From a virus: a stretch of 31,378 nt of DNA. The stretch lies in the IMG/VR virus record IMGVR_UViG_3300029448_000226, positions 1 to 31,378 of that record; one strand, written 5' to 3'. The notes under the pieces are model-generated. The model made no database searches. It had not been told where the DNA came from and saw only the letters and a list, made by a program, of their open reading frames with translations. Made by a program: the position numbers and the translations under genes. Positions 1 to 31,378 of the stretch are shown here, in pieces. Numbering within the stretch: the stretch's first letter is position 1; each line of letters opens with the position of its first letter.

Positions 1-1552
1 TCATTAAAACATCTTCTGTGAATTGTTCAGTTCCTATAACAGAACCTTGTATGTTAATAGTCATACCACCACCTTGTGGTCCATCTAAATTAGGATCTAC
101 TAAAGGTGTTACTTGAACCCTCTCAGGTCCATTACCTTCACCTACCATCATCATTTGAGGACCATCAGTAACAAAATCTGCTCCATATTGTGCTGTTGTT
201 AGGTTGTTTTTAGCAAATATTTTATCTATACTTGCTCCTGCACTTGCTGCTAACAATAGATTAAAAGGAAATCCTATTGATTTCATAATTTGATTTATTA
301 AATGTGCTTTTGACCCACTTAAAGCTGCTTCTAATTCATTTTTTGCACCTGTTACAGTTGTTTGTTCTCTTATTTTACCATAAGCCTTTTCTATTGCACC
401 TCTTTTATCTTTTGCTTCATTTACTTTTTTTTGTATTACTTCTTCTTCTTTTTCTAATTTATTAATTTCTGTTTGTAATTTTACTTGTTCAGATAAAAAA
501 TCTACTCTTATTTCTAAACCTTCTCTTTCTTCAGCATTTTTTTTCTCTAAATTAGTTAATCTTATGCCTTCTTTTGTTCTTTCAATTCTTCCTTCAATTT
601 TACCTTGTTCTGCTCTTGCTAATTCTAAATCTGCTGCTTCTTGTAAAACTACTTTATATTCTTCTAATTTAGTATTTAATTCTTTTTGTGCATCACCTGA
701 AAATTCTACATCTTCTTGTAATTTTTTTAAAGCATTTGTTTTTTCTAATTTTTTCATTGTTAGTTCATATTCAGTTGTTTCCATGCCAAGTTCTTGCATT
801 TCCCTAACAAATGTTTCTAATTTTGTTTCATTTCTTTCTTGTAAAAAATTACCTATTGCTTCTGCTGCATTTTTAGTAGCTACTGCAAATGATTTCATTA
901 ATGGTTCTAATGCTTCACCAAATTCTTCAGCAGTATCACCTACTGCATTGTTCATTTGATCTAATGCACCTATTAATGTTTGTGCTTCTTCTTCTGCTGT
1001 TCCTTTAAATTGTTCTCTTATAAAAACAATACCTTCACCTGCTTTTAATTGTTCTGCTGTTAAATTTTTAAATGCTGCTGGTAGTTTTTCACCAAGTTCA
1101 CCTTGCATACCACTTAGTGTTTTAGTTGTATTCATAACAGCACTTTCAAGTGATATTCCCATAGCTGCTGCTAAATCAACAGATGCTGCAATTATTTCTT
1201 TAGTTTGTTCTGTTGATATACCTAAAGATTTAACATATGCTTGTTGATTAATCAATGCTTCATCACCAAATCTTGTTACTTGTTGTAATGCTTGTGATTG
1301 TTTTATTAATTCCATTGTAGAAGCACCTGATGCAAATCTTAATTTTTTTTCTGCAAGTTCTTGTTTTGCAAAAGCATCTGTTGAAGATTTAATACCATTA
1401 ATTAAACCTGATGCTCCAAAATAAGCTGCTGCTGCAATACCTGCTTTTTTTGCAAGTCCACCTAAAGCACCTGATACACCTTTAACTTGTTTTTCAGATT
1501 TACCTGCACCTTTTGTTATTATTTCAATAATTTGCTGTATCTTACTTGACAT
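1..1552 (-). CDS. Tape measure protein (cut by the left edge)
   Basis: The reading frame is open from ATG 1552 to the window edge (517 complete codons, no stop). The N-terminal 40 residues are glycine/alanine-rich and hydrophobic (VSGALGGLAKKAGIAAAAYF), and a long charged helical or coiled-coil stretch lies around residues 270-390, ending in a run rich in E and K. The C-terminal part has GADFVTDGPQMMMVGEGNGP, a glycine/proline segment of the kind seen at tape measure C-termini. The gene sits directly after the tail tube and the frameshifted chaperone pair, the classic siphovirus order. The last 13 residues are found at the right edge (30921-30962); joined, the protein is 530 residues. At about 1.5 angstrom per residue that suggests a tail near 80 nm (inference). 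Its start overlaps the preceding gene by 11 bases. Confidence 0.85.
   Translation of the reverse strand, partial: MSSKIQQIIEIITKGAGKSEKQVKGVSGALGGLAKKAGIAAAAYFGASGLINGIKSSTDAFAKQELAEKKLRFASGASTMELIKQSQALQQVTRFGDEALINQQAYVKSLGISTEQTKEIIAASVDLAAAMGISLESAVMNTTKTLSGMQGELGEKLPAAFKNLTAEQLKAGEGIVFIREQFKGTAEEEAQTLIGALDQMNNAVGDTAEEFGEALEPLMKSFAVATKNAAEAIGNFLQERNETKLETFVREMQELGMETTEYELTMKKLEKTNALKKLQEDVEFSGDAQKELNTKLEEYKVVLQEAADLELARAEQGKIEGRIERTKEGIRLTNLEKKNAEEREGLEIRVDFLSEQVKLQTEINKLEKEEEVIQKKVNEAKDKRGAIEKAYGKIREQTTVTGAKNELEAALSGSKAHLINQIMKSIGFPFNLLLAASAGASIDKIFAKNNLTTAQYGADFVTDGPQMMMVGEGNGPERVQVTPLVDPNLDGPQGGGMTINIQGSVIGTEQFTEDVLM
2..417. repeat. Left copy of the contig-end repeat (pairs with 30963-31378)
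   Basis: Bases 2-417 align without gaps to 30963-31378. I count about 34 mismatches in 416 bases (about 92% identity). The first ~130 bases and the last ~75 bases are identical or nearly so; the differences cluster in the middle. Both copies encode the same tape measure C-terminal region in frame. Confidence 0.9.
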
Positions 1553-9244: not shown

Positions 9245-10440
9245 TATACTATTACCTTAAATATTGTTTCACCTTTGTTAATCTTGTTTAAACTCTTTGC
9301 ATTGTATGCTTCTAATGATTCATCTATATCATACATATCATCATCATAGTTTTGCAAATCTATTTTTATACCATCTCTATTGCCATTTTTATAAAAGACA
9401 TAGCAGTTCTGTGATGCTCTGCCTGATAATCCTAAACCTTTTTCACTATAATCATTACTTCCTACCATACTACTGCTTCTACTAAAATTATCTCCTACTC
9501 TTGCACTATGAACATGTCCAAATATAACATAGTGTATTTTAGTTCCTCTTGCACTATATCTGCCCATAATCTGTGTTACACTTGTATCTAATCCTTTTTT
9601 AATTGAACCATTACCATGTAATAACAATAAATTTTGTCCTGCAACCTCTACTACCATTTCAGTAGGGTCACCTTGTATAAAGTTTACTTTACTATCTCTA
9701 AATAAATATTCTAATGTCTTAAATATAGTAAAATCATAATTATCAGATGCTAACATTTTACTCCAGCCCCAGTCTTTCTTAACTCTTGATTCATTGCCTG
9801 TAACTGCTGCAACTGATACATTAAAGTGTTTGTTTAACTCTAAAATAATCTGTTGAAATATATCTACTGCTAAGAATGTAGCCTTTGCTCTATTAGTAGC
9901 CATAGATAATAATTCATCTAATCTTCTATCACTATTTAACAAATCACCTGTCATTGCTATAAGTATGTTGCTTACATCTTGTGATTTAAAGAAAGATATT
10001 GCCCTTTTAACAAAGTATTTACATCTTTTAGACATAACCTTAAAGTCATACTTATTATGCTCTAAATCTACAAGTTCATTTGCATGTATATCAGAAAATT
10101 GTATAACACCACAAGCCTTGCTTGTTTGTTTATGTGATTTAGTTAGCTTACTTAGTTTATAGTTGTCAAAAATCTCTGCTAATTTGTTATTGTATTTAGA
10201 TATTGCATTTTCTATTCTTGCATATTCTCTAAATGACTTTCTTTCAATTCTGTTTAAATCTTGAATGGATTGTTTTTGTTTGGCTAACTTAACATTTGCC
10301 CTTAGTATATCTGCATCATCAGGTGATAATGGATATATTGTTTTGTGATTACACTTTTTGCATTTATATCTTTGTCTACCTCTGTGCCAACCTTCTTTAC
10401 CCAGTTGTAAACTAAAGCAATTAGGACAAACAAGTTCCAT
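9244..10440 (-). CDS. Metallophosphoesterase with N-terminal transposase-like zinc ribbon
   Basis: The 398-residue product has an N-terminal four-cysteine zinc ribbon (C5, C8, C27, C30; CPNCFSLQLGKEGWHRGRQR) of the InsA/IS1-like type, with the RQRYKCKKC signature. A helical linker (residues ~40-105) follows. Then comes a calcineurin-like phosphoesterase core: D117-x-H119 (FSDIHANE), G165-D166, G215-N216-E217, H275 in LLHGNG, and G308-H-V-H311. The metal-binding residues are thus present, but the usual GNH is GNE, so the catalytic histidine is missing or replaced. It could act on nucleic acid or nucleotides, directed by the zinc ribbon. It is embedded in the lysis/structural operon between two holin-like genes; its role there is unknown. 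Confidence 0.8.
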   Translation of the reverse strand: MELVCPNCFSLQLGKEGWHRGRQRYKCKKCNHKTIYPLSPDDADILRANVKLAKQKQSIQDLNRIERKSFREYARIENAISKYNNKLAEIFDNYKLSKLTKSHKQTSKACGVIQFSDIHANELVDLEHNKYDFKVMSKRCKYFVKRAISFFKSQDVSNILIAMTGDLLNSDRRLDELLSMATNRAKATFLAVDIFQQIILELNKHFNVSVAAVTGNESRVKKDWGWSKMLASDNYDFTIFKTLEYLFRDSKVNFIQGDPTEMVVEVAGQNLLLLHGNGSIKKGLDTSVTQIMGRYSARGTKIHYVIFGHVHSARVGDNFSRSSSMVGSNDYSEKGLGLSGRASQNCYVFYKNGNRDGIKIDLQNYDDDMYDIDESLEAYNAKSLNKINKGETIFKVIV

Positions 10441-20797: not shown

Positions 20798-20926
20798 TCA
20801 TTTAAAAAAGTTAAAATATTTGCTTTGTAATGATTTCTTATATTTAACTGCTTCTTTCTTTGTTAAGAACTTCTTTCCATTTACTATGTATATAAATCCT
20901 AATTCTTGTTTAATGTCTTTGTTCAT
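20798..20926 (-). CDS. 42-residue basic protein after the methyltransferase
   Basis: ATG 20926 overlaps the methyltransferase stop as ATGA. The product starts MNKDIKQELGFIYIVNGKKF and continues LTKKEAVKYKKSLQS, ending YFNFFK. It has one beta-beta-alpha-like layout and is strongly basic. It ends two bases before the conserved promoter-like motif. No family is recognised; a small nucleic-acid-binding protein is possible. Confidence 0.6.
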   Translation of the reverse strand: MNKDIKQELGFIYIVNGKKFLTKKEAVKYKKSLQSKYFNFFK

Positions 20927-21924
20927 TTTTCTATATAACTAAATATATGTTCTATTATTGGTAAGGTCCAACCATCTCCTAATAAACTACCAGTATCTTT
21001 TTTACTTAATATATCACACCAATCATCAGGGAATCCTTGAAGCCTACACATTTCTACTTTATTAACAGTTCTAACCAACATATTGTCTGAAACTAAAGGA
21101 GGTGTTTGATAGCCTTGTTTTACTACCTTTTTAAGATATTTATTTTGCTTATCTTTATCTTTTATAAACATTTTCCAACAACCTTCTACTAATGTTCCAG
21201 CTTTATCTTTTTTTACATAAACTAAACTCATCATTGACCTTGTTTCTCTTGCTTTTAAAAACTTTTGTGCTTTTTTACTATTTAAATCTTTATAACTTGC
21301 TGATGCTATTGTTCTTTCTGCTAAACATACTGACTTATCAACTTTAACTGCACCACCTTGCACTATATCTTTAAACATAATCTTTTTATCTTTAGGTTGT
21401 GGTATGTTTGTTTTTACATCACCAAATAGTCCATCTGCTGTTGTTCTAATATTACTCCAATAATACCTATCTCTTAATTGTGCAGTTACTAATGATGAAT
21501 TAATTCTAACTGGATATACACCTAATGCTCTTGACATTATACCCACATCTTTTTTAGGAGCAGAACCTACATTTTCTTGTAAAAACAATATATTAGGATT
21601 TAATTCTTTAATGTGATTTAATATATCTACAAACACCCAAAATAAACCACTTCTTTCACCATCTAAACCTTTTCTTTTACCAGCTATTGATAAATCTTGA
21701 CATGGGCTACCACTTAAAACCATATCTATGTTCTTCCAATCTATATCCCATTCTTTCCACTTAGTAACATCTCCTACTTGTATTGTATCAGGATAATGAT
21801 GTTGAGTTAGCTTTATTGCAGCAGGTTTTATTTCTGATGAATAATACTTATCAACCTTTATTCCTACATTGTCTAATGCAGTATGTCCAGTAGACATTCC
21901 ATTAAATAAACTTAAAACATTCAT
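20923..21924 (-). CDS. DNA (cytosine-5) methyltransferase
   Basis: The 333-residue product has the C5-methyltransferase motifs in order: I (VLSLFNGMSTGHTAL, residues 3-17), IV with catalytic Cys75 (SGSPCQDLS), VI with E117 (LQENV), VIII (Q149-L-R-D-R153), IX (RTVNKVEMCRLQGFP) and X (LLGDGWTLPIIEHIF). The NGMSTGHTAL form of motif I is common in phage and Dnmt3-like enzymes. The target recognition region (~160-270) is short and lysine-rich. It methylates cytosine at an unknown site, probably to protect phage DNA. No partner restriction enzyme is seen. It overlaps rusA by 4 bases (ATGA). Confidence 0.92.
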   Translation of the reverse strand: MNVLSLFNGMSTGHTALDNVGIKVDKYYSSEIKPAAIKLTQHHYPDTIQVGDVTKWKEWDIDWKNIDMVLSGSPCQDLSIAGKRKGLDGERSGLFWVFVDILNHIKELNPNILFLQENVGSAPKKDVGIMSRALGVYPVRINSSLVTAQLRDRYYWSNIRTTADGLFGDVKTNIPQPKDKKIMFKDIVQGGAVKVDKSVCLAERTIASASYKDLNSKKAQKFLKARETRSMMSLVYVKKDKAGTLVEGCWKMFIKDKDKQNKYLKKVVKQGYQTPPLVSDNMLVRTVNKVEMCRLQGFPDDWCDILSKKDTGSLLGDGWTLPIIEHIFSYIEK

Positions 21925-22310
21925 ATTATTATCTCTGTATAAGATTCTTTATCATCATATTCTTTTGTTGCTCTAAGTTCTATCACTTGACTATCATCTA
22001 AATAAACCAATTTATTCATACAATCCATATAGAACTTTACATAATTATCTACATCAGGTCTTTTAATATGATATACTGGTGCTGTTTTTTTTAATTCATT
22101 AGCATATTTACCTGTTCTAAAATGTGCTTTTGGTCTTTTCAAATGAAAAACAAAACTAATTTTTAAAGCATCTGTGTATGGTTCACCAGTAAACTGCTTT
22201 TTTATTTGTTGTATTGCTATCTTCTTATCTTTGCTTGATGGATCATAAACAAACCCTCTTGCAAATCTATGCCTTTTTTGTGCTATGCAGTTATTTATTC
22301 TTAGTTTCAT
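21921..22310 (-). CDS. rusA: RusA-type Holliday junction resolvase
   Basis: The 129-residue product has the RusA pattern: VFHLKRPKAHFRTGKYANE, HIKRPDVDNYVKFYMDCMNK (D86, D88, K92) and LVYLDDSQVIELRATKEY (D105/D106), equivalent to the E. coli RusA catalytic aspartates and lysine. It resolves four-way junctions during phage recombination and replication and clears branches before packaging. It lacks a clear Shine-Dalgarno: the ATG is preceded by ACCUUUAAUU, 10 bases after the structured element at 22321-22388. Confidence 0.88.
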   Translation of the reverse strand: MKLRINNCIAQKRHRFARGFVYDPSSKDKKIAIQQIKKQFTGEPYTDALKISFVFHLKRPKAHFRTGKYANELKKTAPVYHIKRPDVDNYVKFYMDCMNKLVYLDDSQVIELRATKEYDDKESYTEIII

Positions 22311-25577: not shown

Positions 25578-26552
25578 TTAAACTTGTTCTTCTAATGTTA
25601 ATTTATAATTAATAAATTTAGGATTTGCTTGTGTTACTTGGTAATCAGATATTCTAACTATTGCCCATTGATCAGAATTTGCAGAATCAGATATATTAAC
25701 CACTAATGGAAGGTGACCTCCCATAGTTTGTTTTATTACTGATGTATAGAAATCTGTGCTATTATTAGTATCAGATGCACTTGGAACATCTGAACCAGTC
25801 AAATATTCACCTTGTGTATCTTGTGTCCAATTATTGCTATTTAACATGTTGTTCTGTGCCATCATCTTGCTATCTTGTAAGAAGCTAAAATTAACATTCC
25901 AAGTTCTAATACCATTTCTTGAATTTGTAGGCATATTTCTTGTATCTGCTAACTGATCATCTAATTCCCAAGCATCTAACAACCATTTACCAGTTTTAGA
26001 ATAATTAAGAGTAGATATAGTTTTACCTGATACAGATTTTTTAGATTTATAACCATAGCTAACAGAATGTGTTTGGCTAACATCTACATTCTGTGGTGCA
26101 ACAAACTTTCTACCCCATAAAAAGCTACCAACCATATTTTCTGCTTGATTGTTAAATTGCATAATCATAGACTTACTATCTACATTGGCTAAATTAACTA
26201 AACTCCAGCCATTATATTCACAATCTGTATCTATATTAGAATTTACTATTTGTGTAGCATCTAAAACACCATCATCACCTTCTAATGTTAAATTTTGTTG
26301 ATCTGCAAAGTTATGTCCTAAAGTCATAAAGAAATCAGGCTTAATGTTATGATTTATATAAAAACCTATATTATCTAATGCTTCTGTATTAAAAGAAGAT
26401 ATTTTAGATGGATTTAAATTAATTAAGTTAAATAGTTGTTCTTGTGTTAAGTCAGTATTTGATTCTGCTAACTCCAACATTCCACTTGCATAAGCATAAA
26501 GTGGATAGCTTGTGTAAAATGTTAGTTTATCTGCTAATTGAAAATTTCCCAT
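25578..26552 (-). CDS. Tail-tip / distal tail structural protein
   Basis: The 324-residue product is the last gene of the late operon. It starts MGNFQLADKLTFYTSYPLYA and is rich in N, S, T and D with beta segments (NVDVSQTHSVSYGYKSKKSV, GIRTWNVNFSFLQDSKMMAQ, LPLVVNISDSANSDQWAIVR). Position after the tape measure and the large tail protein, and a beta-rich composition, fit a distal tail, baseplate or receptor-binding component. I recognise no named family. It is coupled to the 198-codon gene by TAATG. Confidence 0.6.
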   Translation of the reverse strand: MGNFQLADKLTFYTSYPLYAYASGMLELAESNTDLTQEQLFNLINLNPSKISSFNTEALDNIGFYINHNIKPDFFMTLGHNFADQQNLTLEGDDGVLDATQIVNSNIDTDCEYNGWSLVNLANVDSKSMIMQFNNQAENMVGSFLWGRKFVAPQNVDVSQTHSVSYGYKSKKSVSGKTISTLNYSKTGKWLLDAWELDDQLADTRNMPTNSRNGIRTWNVNFSFLQDSKMMAQNNMLNSNNWTQDTQGEYLTGSDVPSASDTNNSTDFYTSVIKQTMGGHLPLVVNISDSANSDQWAIVRISDYQVTQANPKFINYKLTLEEQV

Positions 26553-27148
26553 TAATAACCTCTTTTAATTTGTTGCCCTTTTTTAAGGCTTTTTTTAGTT
26601 TTGTTAGTATTTGTATTCAAATCTTGTAATCTTGTTAAACCAGTATCTTTTTTGCCTAAATAAGATAACTTCCTGCTTGTTTCTTTAGTTGTAGTTATAG
26701 TATTTGTTTCATTATCTATCTTTGATACTTGTTTTAATGATTTAACATAGCTGTTGTTACCATTAAATGATAAGTCATCATAAGTAGTTGTTAATGATTC
26801 CCATACATATTTAGTTGTAGTATTATCATCTAATCTTTTAGTTCCTAATGCACCCCATGTTTGTAGTGCTGGTTTTTTAGTAATCAGATCATATTCATTT
26901 AAATCTTTATCTACCATCTTTGCATAATAAATATTACAATTACCATTATATTCAAACAATTCTTCTATTATTTCATCATTAGTGCTAAATCTTATTATTA
27001 TAATCTTGTTATTACCTTTTTGAATTATAAAATCATTAGGCAGCTTATTGTTTATATACAATTCACCCTTGTATCTAATTTCAATGCCTTGATACACTAT
27101 ATCTGTGTTAATCTCTACTGACTTTTCTTTTATTAGTAATTTATTCAT
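26552..27148 (-). CDS. Tail-tip protein, unknown
   Basis: The 198-residue product has a beta-rich N-terminal half (VEINTDIVYQGIEIRYKGEL, NKIIIIRFSTNDEIIEELFE) and a charged, T/K-rich C-terminus (TKKSLKKGQQIKRGY). It lies between the very large tail protein and the last tail gene and shares one-base TAATG overlaps with both. It is probably a tail-tip or assembly component. Confidence 0.55.
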   Translation of the reverse strand: MNKLLIKEKSVEINTDIVYQGIEIRYKGELYINNKLPNDFIIQKGNNKIIIIRFSTNDEIIEELFEYNGNCNIYYAKMVDKDLNEYDLITKKPALQTWGALGTKRLDDNTTTKYVWESLTTTYDDLSFNGNNSYVKSLKQVSKIDNETNTITTTKETSRKLSYLGKKDTGLTRLQDLNTNTNKTKKSLKKGQQIKRGY

Positions 27149-30100
27149 TATTCTATTATTGTATTTACAAGTGCTACTATATCTACTACTTCTAAACTTA
27201 GACTACTATCTGTGTCTGCTATGTCAGAGTATTGATTGTTTAAAATCATATTTACAAGTCCTATAATATCTGTTATATCTATTATGCCATCTTGATTTAA
27301 ATCACCATAAGGTATTTCTTGACCTTGTATATAAGTTACATTAGGATTTAATTCTGCTGGTGGTAAATAATTATAGTTTCTAAGATTAGGATATGTAGTA
27401 TTGAATTGTCTTAGATTAGCTACTACATCATAATTTTCACCAAAACCATGTAAACCATCTGTGCCTAAATAATGTAATTGATATGCAGACACTCTTATTT
27501 TATCTAAGCTATAATCTGTTGCAGTAACAATCCATAAAGGATATATAGGTTGTCCATTTAACATTTCTACTTTGCTATAATCTATTCCAAATGCTTTTGT
27601 GTCATTTAATAATGGTATATGCAATATATCACCACATTTAACTGTGTAACTAAGTGGTAAGTCTATATTTATTAATAAGTGTTGATTACAATTATTTAAT
27701 AAATCAAATGTTTGAAATTTCTCAACAGTTGCAGTATCTGTGTGATACCTTAACTCTTTTTCACTAAATGCAGTATCTTCATTTATATTGTAATATTGTT
27801 CACCAGTATAGCTTTCTAATAAATCTGTAATCCTTACTTCACCTCTATCAAAAGTATATTTATCTAAACCATTATCATATCTGTAAAAACATTTATTTTT
27901 AACAATAACATTTTCTCTTTTTGTTCTACTAATGCTATAATTTAAAACATCAGATTCATCTACAATATAATCTATATCATCTTCTGTGTAATTATTTTTA
28001 ATTGTTATTAATCCAAAGTTGCCTTCAGGTGTAAAAGAAAAGAATGATTGTGTTTCCTTAGATATGTCTTGCAATAAATTCTTAGCTTCTACATTATCAT
28101 CTATGCAAAATCCCATTTTCCAGCTATCATATACTGCTCTTGATTCTTCTATAAGATTATGATCATAAAAGTCTGTATCTAAAACATTATCACCTAAACC
28201 ATAATTAAGTTCTCTTGATAACAAGTTAATAAATATATCTGTTGGTTTTTCTACTATTCCATTTGTTTGAAACTGCACATTAGGATTAGTAAAACATTCT
28301 GTTTTTATAGAATCATAGTTTATATATTTCCATAAATGTATTAAATGTGGTTGTGATATTCCATATTCATTTGGATTCTCATTCCATAAATATAATTCAG
28401 ACCTTGTACCAATTTCACTTGGTTGCCATGAAAACTCATTACCCTCCATACCACTACCTATATGTGATTCAACATCTAATATATCTTTATTAATAACATT
28501 AATTAGTTCATCTAAATATGGTGTTAGATTATCAATCCATATATCTATGCTTTCATTTGTATTTAAATCTATACCTAAATCCCAATCAGGTAATTGCAAT
28601 CCTAAAGTATCTACTTCTATATCTTGTTGATATAAATATTTAAATATTGATGTTATTAATAATCTCTTATAATTTGAATATTGTTTAACTATTTGCATAA
28701 ATGAATTTAAATATTCATCATCTACATCATCATAACCATCAGATAATTCAGTTAGCCATTTGCCAAATGAAAGATAATTCCATTGACCAATTTGCATATT
28801 ATATACATATGCTGGTGCAATACCACCAAAAACATTACCTGCTATATAATTATTAACAGGCAATTCTTCAAACATAACTTTATCATAAATATTCATATAT
28901 AGTTTTTTTATTAATCCATGAATTACAAATCTTACAAATTGTGGTGAATTTACTAATTTAGAATCATCAGAATTTGTATTTAATTTTATGTCTAAGAAAT
29001 TAAAAGGATATTCTTGATTTTCATATAATGATTTTTTAAAAAATGAAGGATTTTCAAAAGTATTATATTCTGTATATTTTTGTTCAAAATAATTATCCCA
29101 TTCATCTACAAGTTCATTAAAATCAGGCAATGTATTATCTAATCCAAGTGCTGATTCATTTGGAGTAACATTAATTTCTTCCTGTAATTCTGTTAAACTT
29201 CTAATATCTTCTGTTGATGTATAATCTTTTCTTCCCTCAATAGAAGCATAAAATGTATTTGATTCATAATCTGATTTTTCTGTTAAATACATAAATGAAA
29301 AGTTAGACAATTCATATCCAAGTGTTTTTTCATCATCTTTAATATCTTCATATAATAAAACTTTATCTAAATCTTTAGTTTCATCAAAACTTTCTTTTGC
29401 TTCTTCATGTGAAAAATTATTATTATCAGTATATTGTTTAAAATAACCAACTCTTGATATTCTTTCATTTTCAGTTGTTTCTAATCTTGTAGATGCACTA
29501 ATACCAACATCTTCTAATTCATCAGTATTTGAACCTGTTGTATTATTTGATATATTTTCAAACCAATTTTCAGGTGGTATATTGTTTTCAATAAGTTCTT
29601 TTAATAAATCTGTGTTTAATGGTTTTACTATAAGTGTTTGTCTTTCTGTGTTATTATTTTGTGTTGCTAATCCATTTTCATCAACATTAGCAAATAATCT
29701 TGCATAACAATCATATCTAAATAATTTTTTTGTTTTATCTAATTTTAATAAAATCCATCTATTTTTATTTGTTCCAGCTGAAAAAGTTTTAGATTCTACT
29801 TTAAAAACATCACTTGCATTATATTCATCTTCAGGTTCATCATCATCTCTAAACCAAATTTTATCATAACCCCAATTTGTAGACATAACATCTGTGTTTG
29901 GATTTATATTTTCATCACTTATTACATCATTTAAAGAATCTAATAAATTATCACCTGATATATCTACTATAACATCAGTTGCAAAAGCATATCCCATACA
30001 CAAAATTGGTGTTGATTGTGTGTTTTCTAATTCAGGTAAAATATTATTAGTATTTATGAGCCATGTTTGTGGATTTACAAAATAAGATTTTGCTCTTATT

Positions 30101-30921
30101 GTATCAAAAAATACTTCATAAGGAAATATAACATAGTCATCATCTTCTGCTAAATATAAATAATGATTGTAATTTGTAGTTGAAAGTATTTTATTAGTAG
30201 TAAAACTATTAGATATTGTTTTGCTGTCATGTATAATACCTAATGATTTAAAACCATTATTATTGCTTAAATTAGTTTGATATACAATACTTGGTGCTTT
30301 ATCTACTTTACCATAAACCATAGGAACAGGCTTAGTTTCATCTAAATCAGATATACCATCTTTAATATTTTCATCAAGGTCTGCTAACTTTGTAGCTGGT
30401 AGCTTTTTATCTTTTATATAATCTTGTGTAAAATCTTCTGCTTGTATAGAAATCTTATCACCTGATTGTGATATTCTATTTACAATACCATAAAACATAA
30501 TACTGCAATCATCATTAGATAACTCTTGTATATTCTTATTTAGGTTTATTTTGCTGCATGTAGGTGTTTTATAGTATAAGATAACATATTTACCTATTAA
30601 GGAATTTAAATCATTAAATGATACTGAATTTGTTAATTTAGTAACTACATCATAATAGTTATATAAACTAAATCTAAATGTATTTACTTTTATATTTTTT
30701 TGTTCATAATCAATAGAATTTTTAACACTTGATATGTTTTGCAGTATTTCTTTTGTTTCTATTGTATTGTTATCTTGATCTTGTAGAATTAAATTAGAAG
30801 TAGAAAAAGAATCTAACAGATTGTATTTATCATCTTCTAACTCTGCAACTATAACTACTGGTATTACAGATAGATTATTTCCTTGTGTGTCATTCTTAAA
30901 ATTTTGACTAATTAATGCCAT
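27148..30921 (-). CDS. Large tail-tip protein with C-terminal dockerin-like module
   Basis: The 1257-residue product begins MALISQNFKNDTQGNNLSVI and directly follows the tape measure, the place of the tail-tip hub/central fibre protein. It has many beta segments, e.g. IGKYVILYYKTPTCSKINLN and SLSYTVKCGDILHIPLL, and a late piece (RTKRENVIVKNKCFYRYDNG) recalling baseplate-hub proteins. The C-terminal ~50 residues hold two dockerin-type repeats: D-L-N-Q-D-G-I-I-D-I-T-D then IIGLVNMIL, and D-T-D-S-S-L-S-L-E-V-V-D then IVALVNTII. Both keep acidic or polar residues at loop positions 1, 3, 5 and 12. No cohesin is encoded. It probably contacts the host and ejects DNA. Confidence 0.75.
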   Translation of the reverse strand: MALISQNFKNDTQGNNLSVIPVVIVAELEDDKYNLLDSFSTSNLILQDQDNNTIETKEILQNISSVKNSIDYEQKNIKVNTFRFSLYNYYDVVTKLTNSVSFNDLNSLIGKYVILYYKTPTCSKINLNKNIQELSNDDCSIMFYGIVNRISQSGDKISIQAEDFTQDYIKDKKLPATKLADLDENIKDGISDLDETKPVPMVYGKVDKAPSIVYQTNLSNNNGFKSLGIIHDSKTISNSFTTNKILSTTNYNHYLYLAEDDDYVIFPYEVFFDTIRAKSYFVNPQTWLINTNNILPELENTQSTPILCMGYAFATDVIVDISGDNLLDSLNDVISDENINPNTDVMSTNWGYDKIWFRDDDEPEDEYNASDVFKVESKTFSAGTNKNRWILLKLDKTKKLFRYDCYARLFANVDENGLATQNNNTERQTLIVKPLNTDLLKELIENNIPPENWFENISNNTTGSNTDELEDVGISASTRLETTENERISRVGYFKQYTDNNNFSHEEAKESFDETKDLDKVLLYEDIKDDEKTLGYELSNFSFMYLTEKSDYESNTFYASIEGRKDYTSTEDIRSLTELQEEINVTPNESALGLDNTLPDFNELVDEWDNYFEQKYTEYNTFENPSFFKKSLYENQEYPFNFLDIKLNTNSDDSKLVNSPQFVRFVIHGLIKKLYMNIYDKVMFEELPVNNYIAGNVFGGIAPAYVYNMQIGQWNYLSFGKWLTELSDGYDDVDDEYLNSFMQIVKQYSNYKRLLITSIFKYLYQQDIEVDTLGLQLPDWDLGIDLNTNESIDIWIDNLTPYLDELINVINKDILDVESHIGSGMEGNEFSWQPSEIGTRSELYLWNENPNEYGISQPHLIHLWKYINYDSIKTECFTNPNVQFQTNGIVEKPTDIFINLLSRELNYGLGDNVLDTDFYDHNLIEESRAVYDSWKMGFCIDDNVEAKNLLQDISKETQSFFSFTPEGNFGLITIKNNYTEDDIDYIVDESDVLNYSISRTKRENVIVKNKCFYRYDNGLDKYTFDRGEVRITDLLESYTGEQYYNINEDTAFSEKELRYHTDTATVEKFQTFDLLNNCNQHLLINIDLPLSYTVKCGDILHIPLLNDTKAFGIDYSKVEMLNGQPIYPLWIVTATDYSLDKIRVSAYQLHYLGTDGLHGFGENYDVVANLRQFNTTYPNLRNYNYLPPAELNPNVTYIQGQEIPYGDLNQDGIIDITDIIGLVNMILNNQYSDIADTDSSLSLEVVDIVALVNTIIE

Positions 30922-31378
30922 TAAATTCTATTTCCAAGCCTTAAACCTTCTTCTATCTGTGGCATTAAAACATCTTCTGTGAATTGTTCAGTTCCTATAA
31001 CAGAACCTTGTATGTTAATAGTCATACCACCACCTTGTGGTCCATCTAAATTAGGATCTACTAAAGGTGTTACTTGAACCCTCTCAGGTCCACTACCTTC
31101 ACCTACCATCATCATTTGAGGTCCATCAGTAACAAAATCTGCTCCATATTGTGCTGCTGTTATATTGTTTTTTGCAAACAATTTATCTATACTTGCACCT
31201 GCTCCTGCTGCTGCTAAAATGTTAAATGGAAATGCAATATGTTTCATTATTTGCTTTATTAAATGTGCTTTAGATGAATTTAGTGCTGCTTCAAATTCAT
31301 TTTTTGCACCTGTTGCAGTTGTTTGTTCTCTTATTTTACCATAAGCCTTTTCTATTGCACCTCTTTTATCTTTTGCTT
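30921..31378 (-). CDS. Tape measure protein, C-terminal end (cut by the right edge)
   Basis: The frame is open from the right edge to the TAA at 30921-30923. The translation matches the end of the left-edge tape measure for 138 residues, with about 17 differences, then adds the true C-terminus MPQIEEGLRLGNRI. Shared parts include TDGPQMMMVGEGxGPERVQV and GGGMTINIQGSVIGTEQFTE. An internal ATG (31247) is not the real start. The stop overlaps the next ATG (TAATG). It is the same gene as 1-1552 on the circular map, or a close allele. Confidence 0.85.
   Translation of the reverse strand, partial: AKDKRGAIEKAYGKIREQTTATGAKNEFEAALNSSKAHLIKQIMKHIAFPFNILAAAGAGASIDKLFAKNNITAAQYGADFVTDGPQMMMVGEGSGPERVQVTPLVDPNLDGPQGGGMTINIQGSVIGTEQFTEDVLMPQIEEGLRLGNRI
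30963..31378. repeat. Right copy of the contig-end repeat (pairs with 2-417)
   Basis: The 416 bases align without gaps to 2-417 at about 92% identity. Substitutions are mostly in the part coding the hydrophobic segment (SIGFPFNLLLAASAGASIDK versus HIAFPFNILAAAGAGASIDK). The frame is intact in both copies, so both look like functional alleles. Confidence 0.9.

Follow-up and report, generated by a model that had tools for sequence, protein, structure and literature searches.

Joints of cohesin and dockerin are known chiefly from cellulosomes, and a small number occur in other proteins of bacteria and archaea. In cellulosomes, the F-hand helices of the dockerin form the contact with the cohesin when calcium is present, and the type I dockerins of these systems, such as those of C. 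thermocellum CelS (2mte) and Xyn10Y (1ohz), consist of two F-hand loops that are each followed by a helix. In tailed phages, gpJ-type proteins carry receptor-binding parts at the tail-tip end, and the C-terminal end of lambda gpJ is a fibre and receptor-binding part. A dockerin on a phage tail hub is not described in the open-access literature that we searched, a scope that does not support a claim of priority. Dockerins have been mentioned for Gp02 of the E. coli phage HSE2, where modelling matched a carbohydrate-binding module as template (PMC5967307), and for gene 40 of the Vibrio phage VvAW1, as a gene with a BLAST note (PMC3558961). Neither of the two is a tail-hub dockerin and neither is accompanied by a partner.

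Here we analyzed a stretch of viral DNA of 31,378 nucleotides (IMG/VR record IMGVR_UViG_3300029448_000226, positions 1 to 31,378, hereafter the window), for which a dockerin had been predicted at the tip of the tail. All features described below with their positions in the window are encoded on the minus strand unless they are mentioned only as side observations. Both ends of the window (1-1552 and 30921-31376) encode the C-terminal portion of a tape measure protein, and these two copies are very similar but not identical. As the examined relatives have one tape measure gene, the contig probably either closes, across strain variation, into a circular map of about 31 kb or contains two variants of this gene. 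Elsewhere in the window, a DNA methyltransferase gene (20923-21924) adjoins a gene for a RusA-like resolvase (21921-22310).

The tail-tip hub and its C-terminal dockerin

The carrier of the dockerin is a protein of 1257 aa (27148..30921) that is encoded immediately downstream of the tape measure gene, the position typical of gpJ-type hubs; the 3' end of the tape measure gene, assigned from the gene family at the position preceding the hub, lies at 30921..31376. A conserved hub domain spanning about aa 885-1152 (27466..28269) was recognized by blastp, alignment, Foldseek and PF13550. It matched hubs of many phages in blastp searches with E-values from 1e-12 to 1e-34 and is common to many viral proteins at about 25-33% identity, while PF13550 (Phage-tail_3) was matched in 11 of 35 relatives. 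An AlphaFold model of aa 860-1257, calculated from a 35-row alignment (mean pLDDT 77), retrieved the Chi tail tip (8vjh, E 1.4e-11) in Foldseek as well as T1, lambda gpJ, JBD30 and T5, all with a probability of 1.00. This fold search with the predicted structure confirmed the protein as a gpJ-type tail-tip hub, and the original prediction of a tail-tip protein was therefore correct. In domain fold and in its place after the tape measure gene the window hub is like those of Chi (8vjh), lambda (8xcg) and T5 (7zhj); in contrast, a linker and a dockerin form its end, the place that the fibre and receptor-binding part occupy in lambda gpJ. In 17 loci among the matches listed, including L020, L046, L056, L062, L105 and L160, the hub is divided over two genes, with the N-terminal half encoded by the preceding gene (family 9) and the hub domain located in the C-terminal half.

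Residues 1206-1257 (27151..27306), which belong to the C-terminal sequence YGDLNQDGIIDITDIIGLVNMILNNQYSDIADTDSSLSLEVVDIVALVNTIIE, were confirmed by profiles, relatives and AlphaFold as a dockerin of two F-hand repeats on a disordered linker. Calcium loop 1 (D1207-D1218, DLNQDGIIDITD, 27268..27303) is canonical by its sequence and by the family conservation of positions 1, 3, 5, 9 and 12, while calcium loop 2 (D1236-D1247, DTDSSLSLEVVD, 27181..27216) is degenerate at positions 5-6, where it has Ser-Leu and most relatives have Asp-Gly, which agrees with the earlier description of a classic first and a weaker second repeat. Loop 2 nevertheless retains acidic or polar residues at positions 1, 3, 5, 9 and 12, so that both F-hand loops have such residues at all five positions and are each followed by a helix. 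Measured by Pfam, the expectation of a dockerin was borne out only in part for the window copy itself: PF00404 matched the last 77 aa of the hub with an E-value of 0.0039 and 17.8 bits, mainly through the first repeat, which is below the curated cut-off of 22.9 bits, whereas Pfam Dockerin_1 was matched in 31 of 35 aligned relatives (best 6e-18). The window tail scored 42 bits with an HMM built from other phage dockerins, with the window's own clade left out, compared to a maximum of 14.8 bits for 1740 shuffled tails. A family profile of seven sequences searched against the PDB found only dockerin-bearing chains among its best matches, including CelS (2mte, E 3.4e-4), 1daq (E 3.6e-4) and 1ohz, the last across both repeats.

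In line with the prediction, the AlphaFold model contains two loop-helix units (helices at aa 1216-1227 and 1245-1256). They follow a linker of about aa 1153-1205 (27307..27465), in which nearly all model residues 298-344 (about aa 1157-1203) have a pLDDT below 50. Since this linker is predicted to be disordered, the dockerin would be tethered outside the hub core. The module is retained in independent contigs of the same clade and is thus not an assembly fragment. Within this clade, L010 and L016 also retain loop 1, but have a degenerate second repeat with an insertion.

The phage module is like the type I dockerins of cellulosomes in its loop pattern D-x-N-x-D-G-x-h-[ND]-x-x-D, in its size of about 50-60 aa and in its C-terminal place on a larger protein. 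It differs from them at loop positions 10-11, which are mostly V/I-L instead of the S-T pair of C. thermocellum dockerins, and the window copy differs further in being part of a phage tail hub and in its degenerate second loop.

Spread and conservation of the dockerin among relatives

A first scan of viral contigs with a dockerin motif recovered 46 contigs, and most of the proteins found were the same hub. Because a scan with the dockerin motif is biased towards this result, a second scan was carried out with a signature of the hub only (Y-I-R-D-x3-A-x12-N-Q-H), ignoring the C-terminus. Among the matches listed, 78 of 87 non-redundant complete hubs had a dockerin at their C-terminal end; more phages with a dockerin hub exist beyond these matches. 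PF00404 was above its cut-off in 18 of 30 phage records. The exceptions followed several patterns. Hubs L116 and L092 have a single degenerate loop only, and L089, L141 and L091 exhibit a weak F-hand match further inside the hub. No dockerin was detectable in L105 and L160, both of which possess the gene that otherwise follows the dockerin-bearing hub (fam0, see below). In L082, L109 and L113 the hub lacks the dockerin, which instead forms the C-terminus of a 217-aa protein, preceded by about 160 other residues, that is encoded between the hub gene and fam0; the dockerin thus remains beside fam0 even after leaving the hub. At the hub C-terminus of L105 a different module (RWNLISGLHYPIDVADIVD...) replaces the dockerin. 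Dockerin repeats were also observed in other viral proteins (L023, L025, L040, L045, L052, L057 and L059), some of them in the middle of the protein or in one whose N-terminus is membrane-like.

The calcium positions 1, 3, 5, 9 and 12 are nearly fixed in both repeats, positions 1 and 12 being fixed through the selection made for the count itself, and the calcium ligands belong to the small set of columns that are invariant or nearly so in the 35-sequence alignment of about 400 residues. Loop positions 10-11 are likewise uniform across the relatives. With hub identities down to 26-33%, this argues that the module was selected or regained and not merely inherited from a recent ancestor. Passive hitch-hiking of the dockerin was ruled out, as the calcium ligands stay fixed while other parts of the hub diverge. 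The pN/pS of the dockerin was not lower than that of the rest of the hub within the window's clade, a noisy comparison based on too few sites.

The conservation pattern bears on two explanations for the dockerin that differ in whether a partner is involved and where it would be found. The dockerin might be a host-adhesion module that reaches out from the tail tip and attaches to a host-surface protein, cohesin-like or otherwise. Its place on the tail-tip hub, where the receptor-binding parts of gpJ-type proteins sit, and its tethering by a flexible linker are consistent with this role. Receptor-binding parts usually vary, however, while the dockerin is near-constant over very divergent hubs down to its uniform loop positions 10-11, and a cohesin-like candidate partner is encoded next door by fam0. 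We consider host adhesion distinctly unlikely. The near-constant dockerin on divergent hubs together with the adjacency of fam0 favors a partner within the virion over a host cohesin, the latter being one of the options that the original prediction had named. Alternatively, the module could be a calcium-dependent C-terminal cap that helps the hub to fold or stabilizes its trimer without binding any partner. F-hand pairs can fold alone with calcium, and both the conserved calcium ligands and the two phages that manage without a dockerin (L105 and L160) fit this explanation. Against it, the disordered linker separates the dockerin from the hub core, and in the three phages with the 217-aa protein the dockerin cannot cap the hub directly, being located on a separate small protein. 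Such a cap therefore appears rather unlikely.

Tblastn with the hub gave no match in 50,697 phage records at the sensitivity of the search. The dockerin matches in phage records were all weak, being limited to fecal phage fragments without annotation, with E-values of 7e-4 at best, and a single match at chance level. The earlier remark that a dockerin is unusual on a virion accordingly applies to cultured phages, as represented by these records, but not to this uncultured family, in which it is the rule. Since the hub pattern had only three chance matches in 84,980 bacterial and archaeal genomes (one per species), no prophage or host was found. The terminase is only about 32% identical to cyanophage and Salmonella phage terminases, which is too distant to name a host.

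The adjoining gene fam0 and its cohesin-like predicted fold

The gene next to the hub, fam0, encodes a candidate dockerin partner of 198 aa (26552..27148) directly after the dockerin, and its start shares one base with the hub stop codon in the window. It was present in 128 of 143 loci and was the next gene after the hub in 125 of these 128 among the matches listed. A reciprocal scan with the fam0 signature alone recovered 42 contigs, 41 of them with a readable upstream gene, and in all 41 assessable contigs the gene directly upstream of fam0 ended in a dockerin. Of these 41, 34 had been part of the first sample, and one subfamily of fam0 was over-represented, so that the independent part of this result is 7 of 7. 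Adjacency of the dockerin and fam0 is also expected of any conserved tail operon, and several loci speak against an obligate pair, namely the already mentioned L105 and L160, with fam0 and no dockerin, and L122, a dockerin hub without adjacent fam0.

The fold of fam0 was predicted because its gene adjoins the hub. In the AlphaFold model, based on 67 sequences, aa 1-90 are all beta with a pLDDT of 94-97 and the remainder is disordered. Foldseek, AlphaFold and VIA together delimit a putative cohesin-like beta-sandwich domain at aa 1-99 (26852..27148). The top match of Foldseek in the PDB was the cohesin 2vo8 (E 5.7e-4, probability 1.00), and six of the top eight were cohesins, among them 2vo8, 2xdh, 6kgc and 6kgf, and, in seventh and eighth place, 2vn6 and 8ajy. 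In VIA, cohesins accounted for about 40 of the best 50 rows, with a top Z of 8.8 over 98 residues at an rmsd of 3.8, and near-ties were observed with unrelated beta-sandwiches (a GH20 domain with Z 8.7 and YcnI with Z 8.5). The predicted all-beta sandwich hence aligns with the cohesins of C. perfringens (2vo8), A. fulgidus (2xdh) and C. acetobutylicum (6kgc) over about 98 residues at an rmsd of about 3-4, even though the domain is about 40 residues shorter than a cohesin.

The sequence comparisons were less favorable. PF00963 had no match at E 10 in the window record, none in 50 phage records, and was not listed among the matches of the 67 fam0 family members. In hhalign against 46 bacterial cohesins, fam0 reached a P of 0.005 and a probability of 7%, the best of the families tried, and a cohesin HMM (HMMER) searched against all neighbour proteins gave no separation from reversed controls. 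With no PF00963 match and a weak profile-profile score, fam0 was not filed as a cohesin and is regarded as cohesin-like in fold only; its N-terminal domain resembles cohesins in predicted structure and not in detectable sequence. Fam0 differs from cohesins in having no Pfam sequence homology to them, in being a separate small protein and in its disordered C-terminal half. The original statement that the phage has no cohesin holds for PF00963, but finds no support if extended to partners of cohesin-like fold, as cohesins are the best fold matches of the domain encoded by the very next gene.

Among the matches listed, no fam0 domain was fused to a hub. A viral protein of 1389 aa in BFVD (A0A516LNX3) has a fam0-like fold over 95 columns at an rmsd of 2.0 and is perhaps a fusion of fam0 with a hub. 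Additionally, a single viral protein in L048 (near 10178-10234 of a 108-kb contig) and in L227 contains a cohesin-looking stretch (VAGFQFTLT...GFSFDGSVIPAGSGTLTIINF) followed by a dockerin; PF00963 did not match this protein even at E 10.

The next conserved tail gene, fam1 (324 aa, 25578..26552), was observed in 113 loci among the matches listed, mostly as the second gene after the hub. It had no Pfam or PHROG match and is possibly a receptor-binding or tail-tip protein. The dockerin could conceivably bind fam1, or the C-terminal part of fam0, in place of the cohesin-like domain, given that fam1 is almost as constant as fam0 and that the co-evolution of distance matrices beyond that of the hub was not significant for either, with a partial correlation of 0.10 between the dockerin and fam1 and of 0.07 (p 0.15) between the dockerin and fam0. 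Because fam0 is the immediate neighbour and has the predicted fold of dockerin receptors, binding to another tail protein or to another part of fam0 strikes us as very improbable.

A putative docking pair within the tail tip

A tethered dockerin and a protein with a predicted cohesin fold that is encoded by an overlapping gene are most simply read as a docking pair inside the virion. We judge the chances to be evenly balanced that the hub dockerin and fam0 form a calcium-dependent joint similar to that of cohesins and dockerins. In such a joint each chain of the hub, presumably a trimer by analogy, would end in a type I-like dockerin tethered by about 50 flexible linker residues, and the F-hand loops of the dockerin would fold in the calcium of seawater. 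The dockerin would then dock onto the N-terminal, cohesin-like beta-sandwich of the fam0 product (26552-27148), thereby fixing fam0, and probably also its neighbour fam1 (25578-26552), to the tail tip. The joint would work as in cellulosomes, as a modular plug and socket that depends on calcium and serves to assemble the end of the tail that contacts the host. The dockerin, the hub, their conservation, the gene order and the predicted folds are what the analysis shows, whereas the binding of calcium, the contact between dockerin and fam0, read from the adjacency of their genes, the trimer and a role in attaching host-recognition parts are inferred.

The near-universal presence of a hub dockerin beside a protein of predicted cohesin fold provides an easily tested hypothesis for tail assembly and for a possible calcium requirement, as both the hub dockerin and the fam0 domain are small and can be produced and combined. 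The dockerin hub is also a marker for a tail module that was not found among the 50,697 phage records at the sensitivity of the search, and phage dockerins and fam0 proteins could be a source of new orthogonal docking pairs in protein engineering. The phages themselves are probably marine, judging from the IMG sample series and from their low G+C content. It is conceivable, if somewhat less than evenly balanced in our estimate, that tail-tip assembly in a large group of uncultured tailed phages, probably marine, relies on a cohesin-dockerin pair that is virus-encoded and calcium-gated and by which host-recognition parts are plugged onto a conserved hub. If true, the joint of the cellulosome would have been put to use in the assembly of virions.
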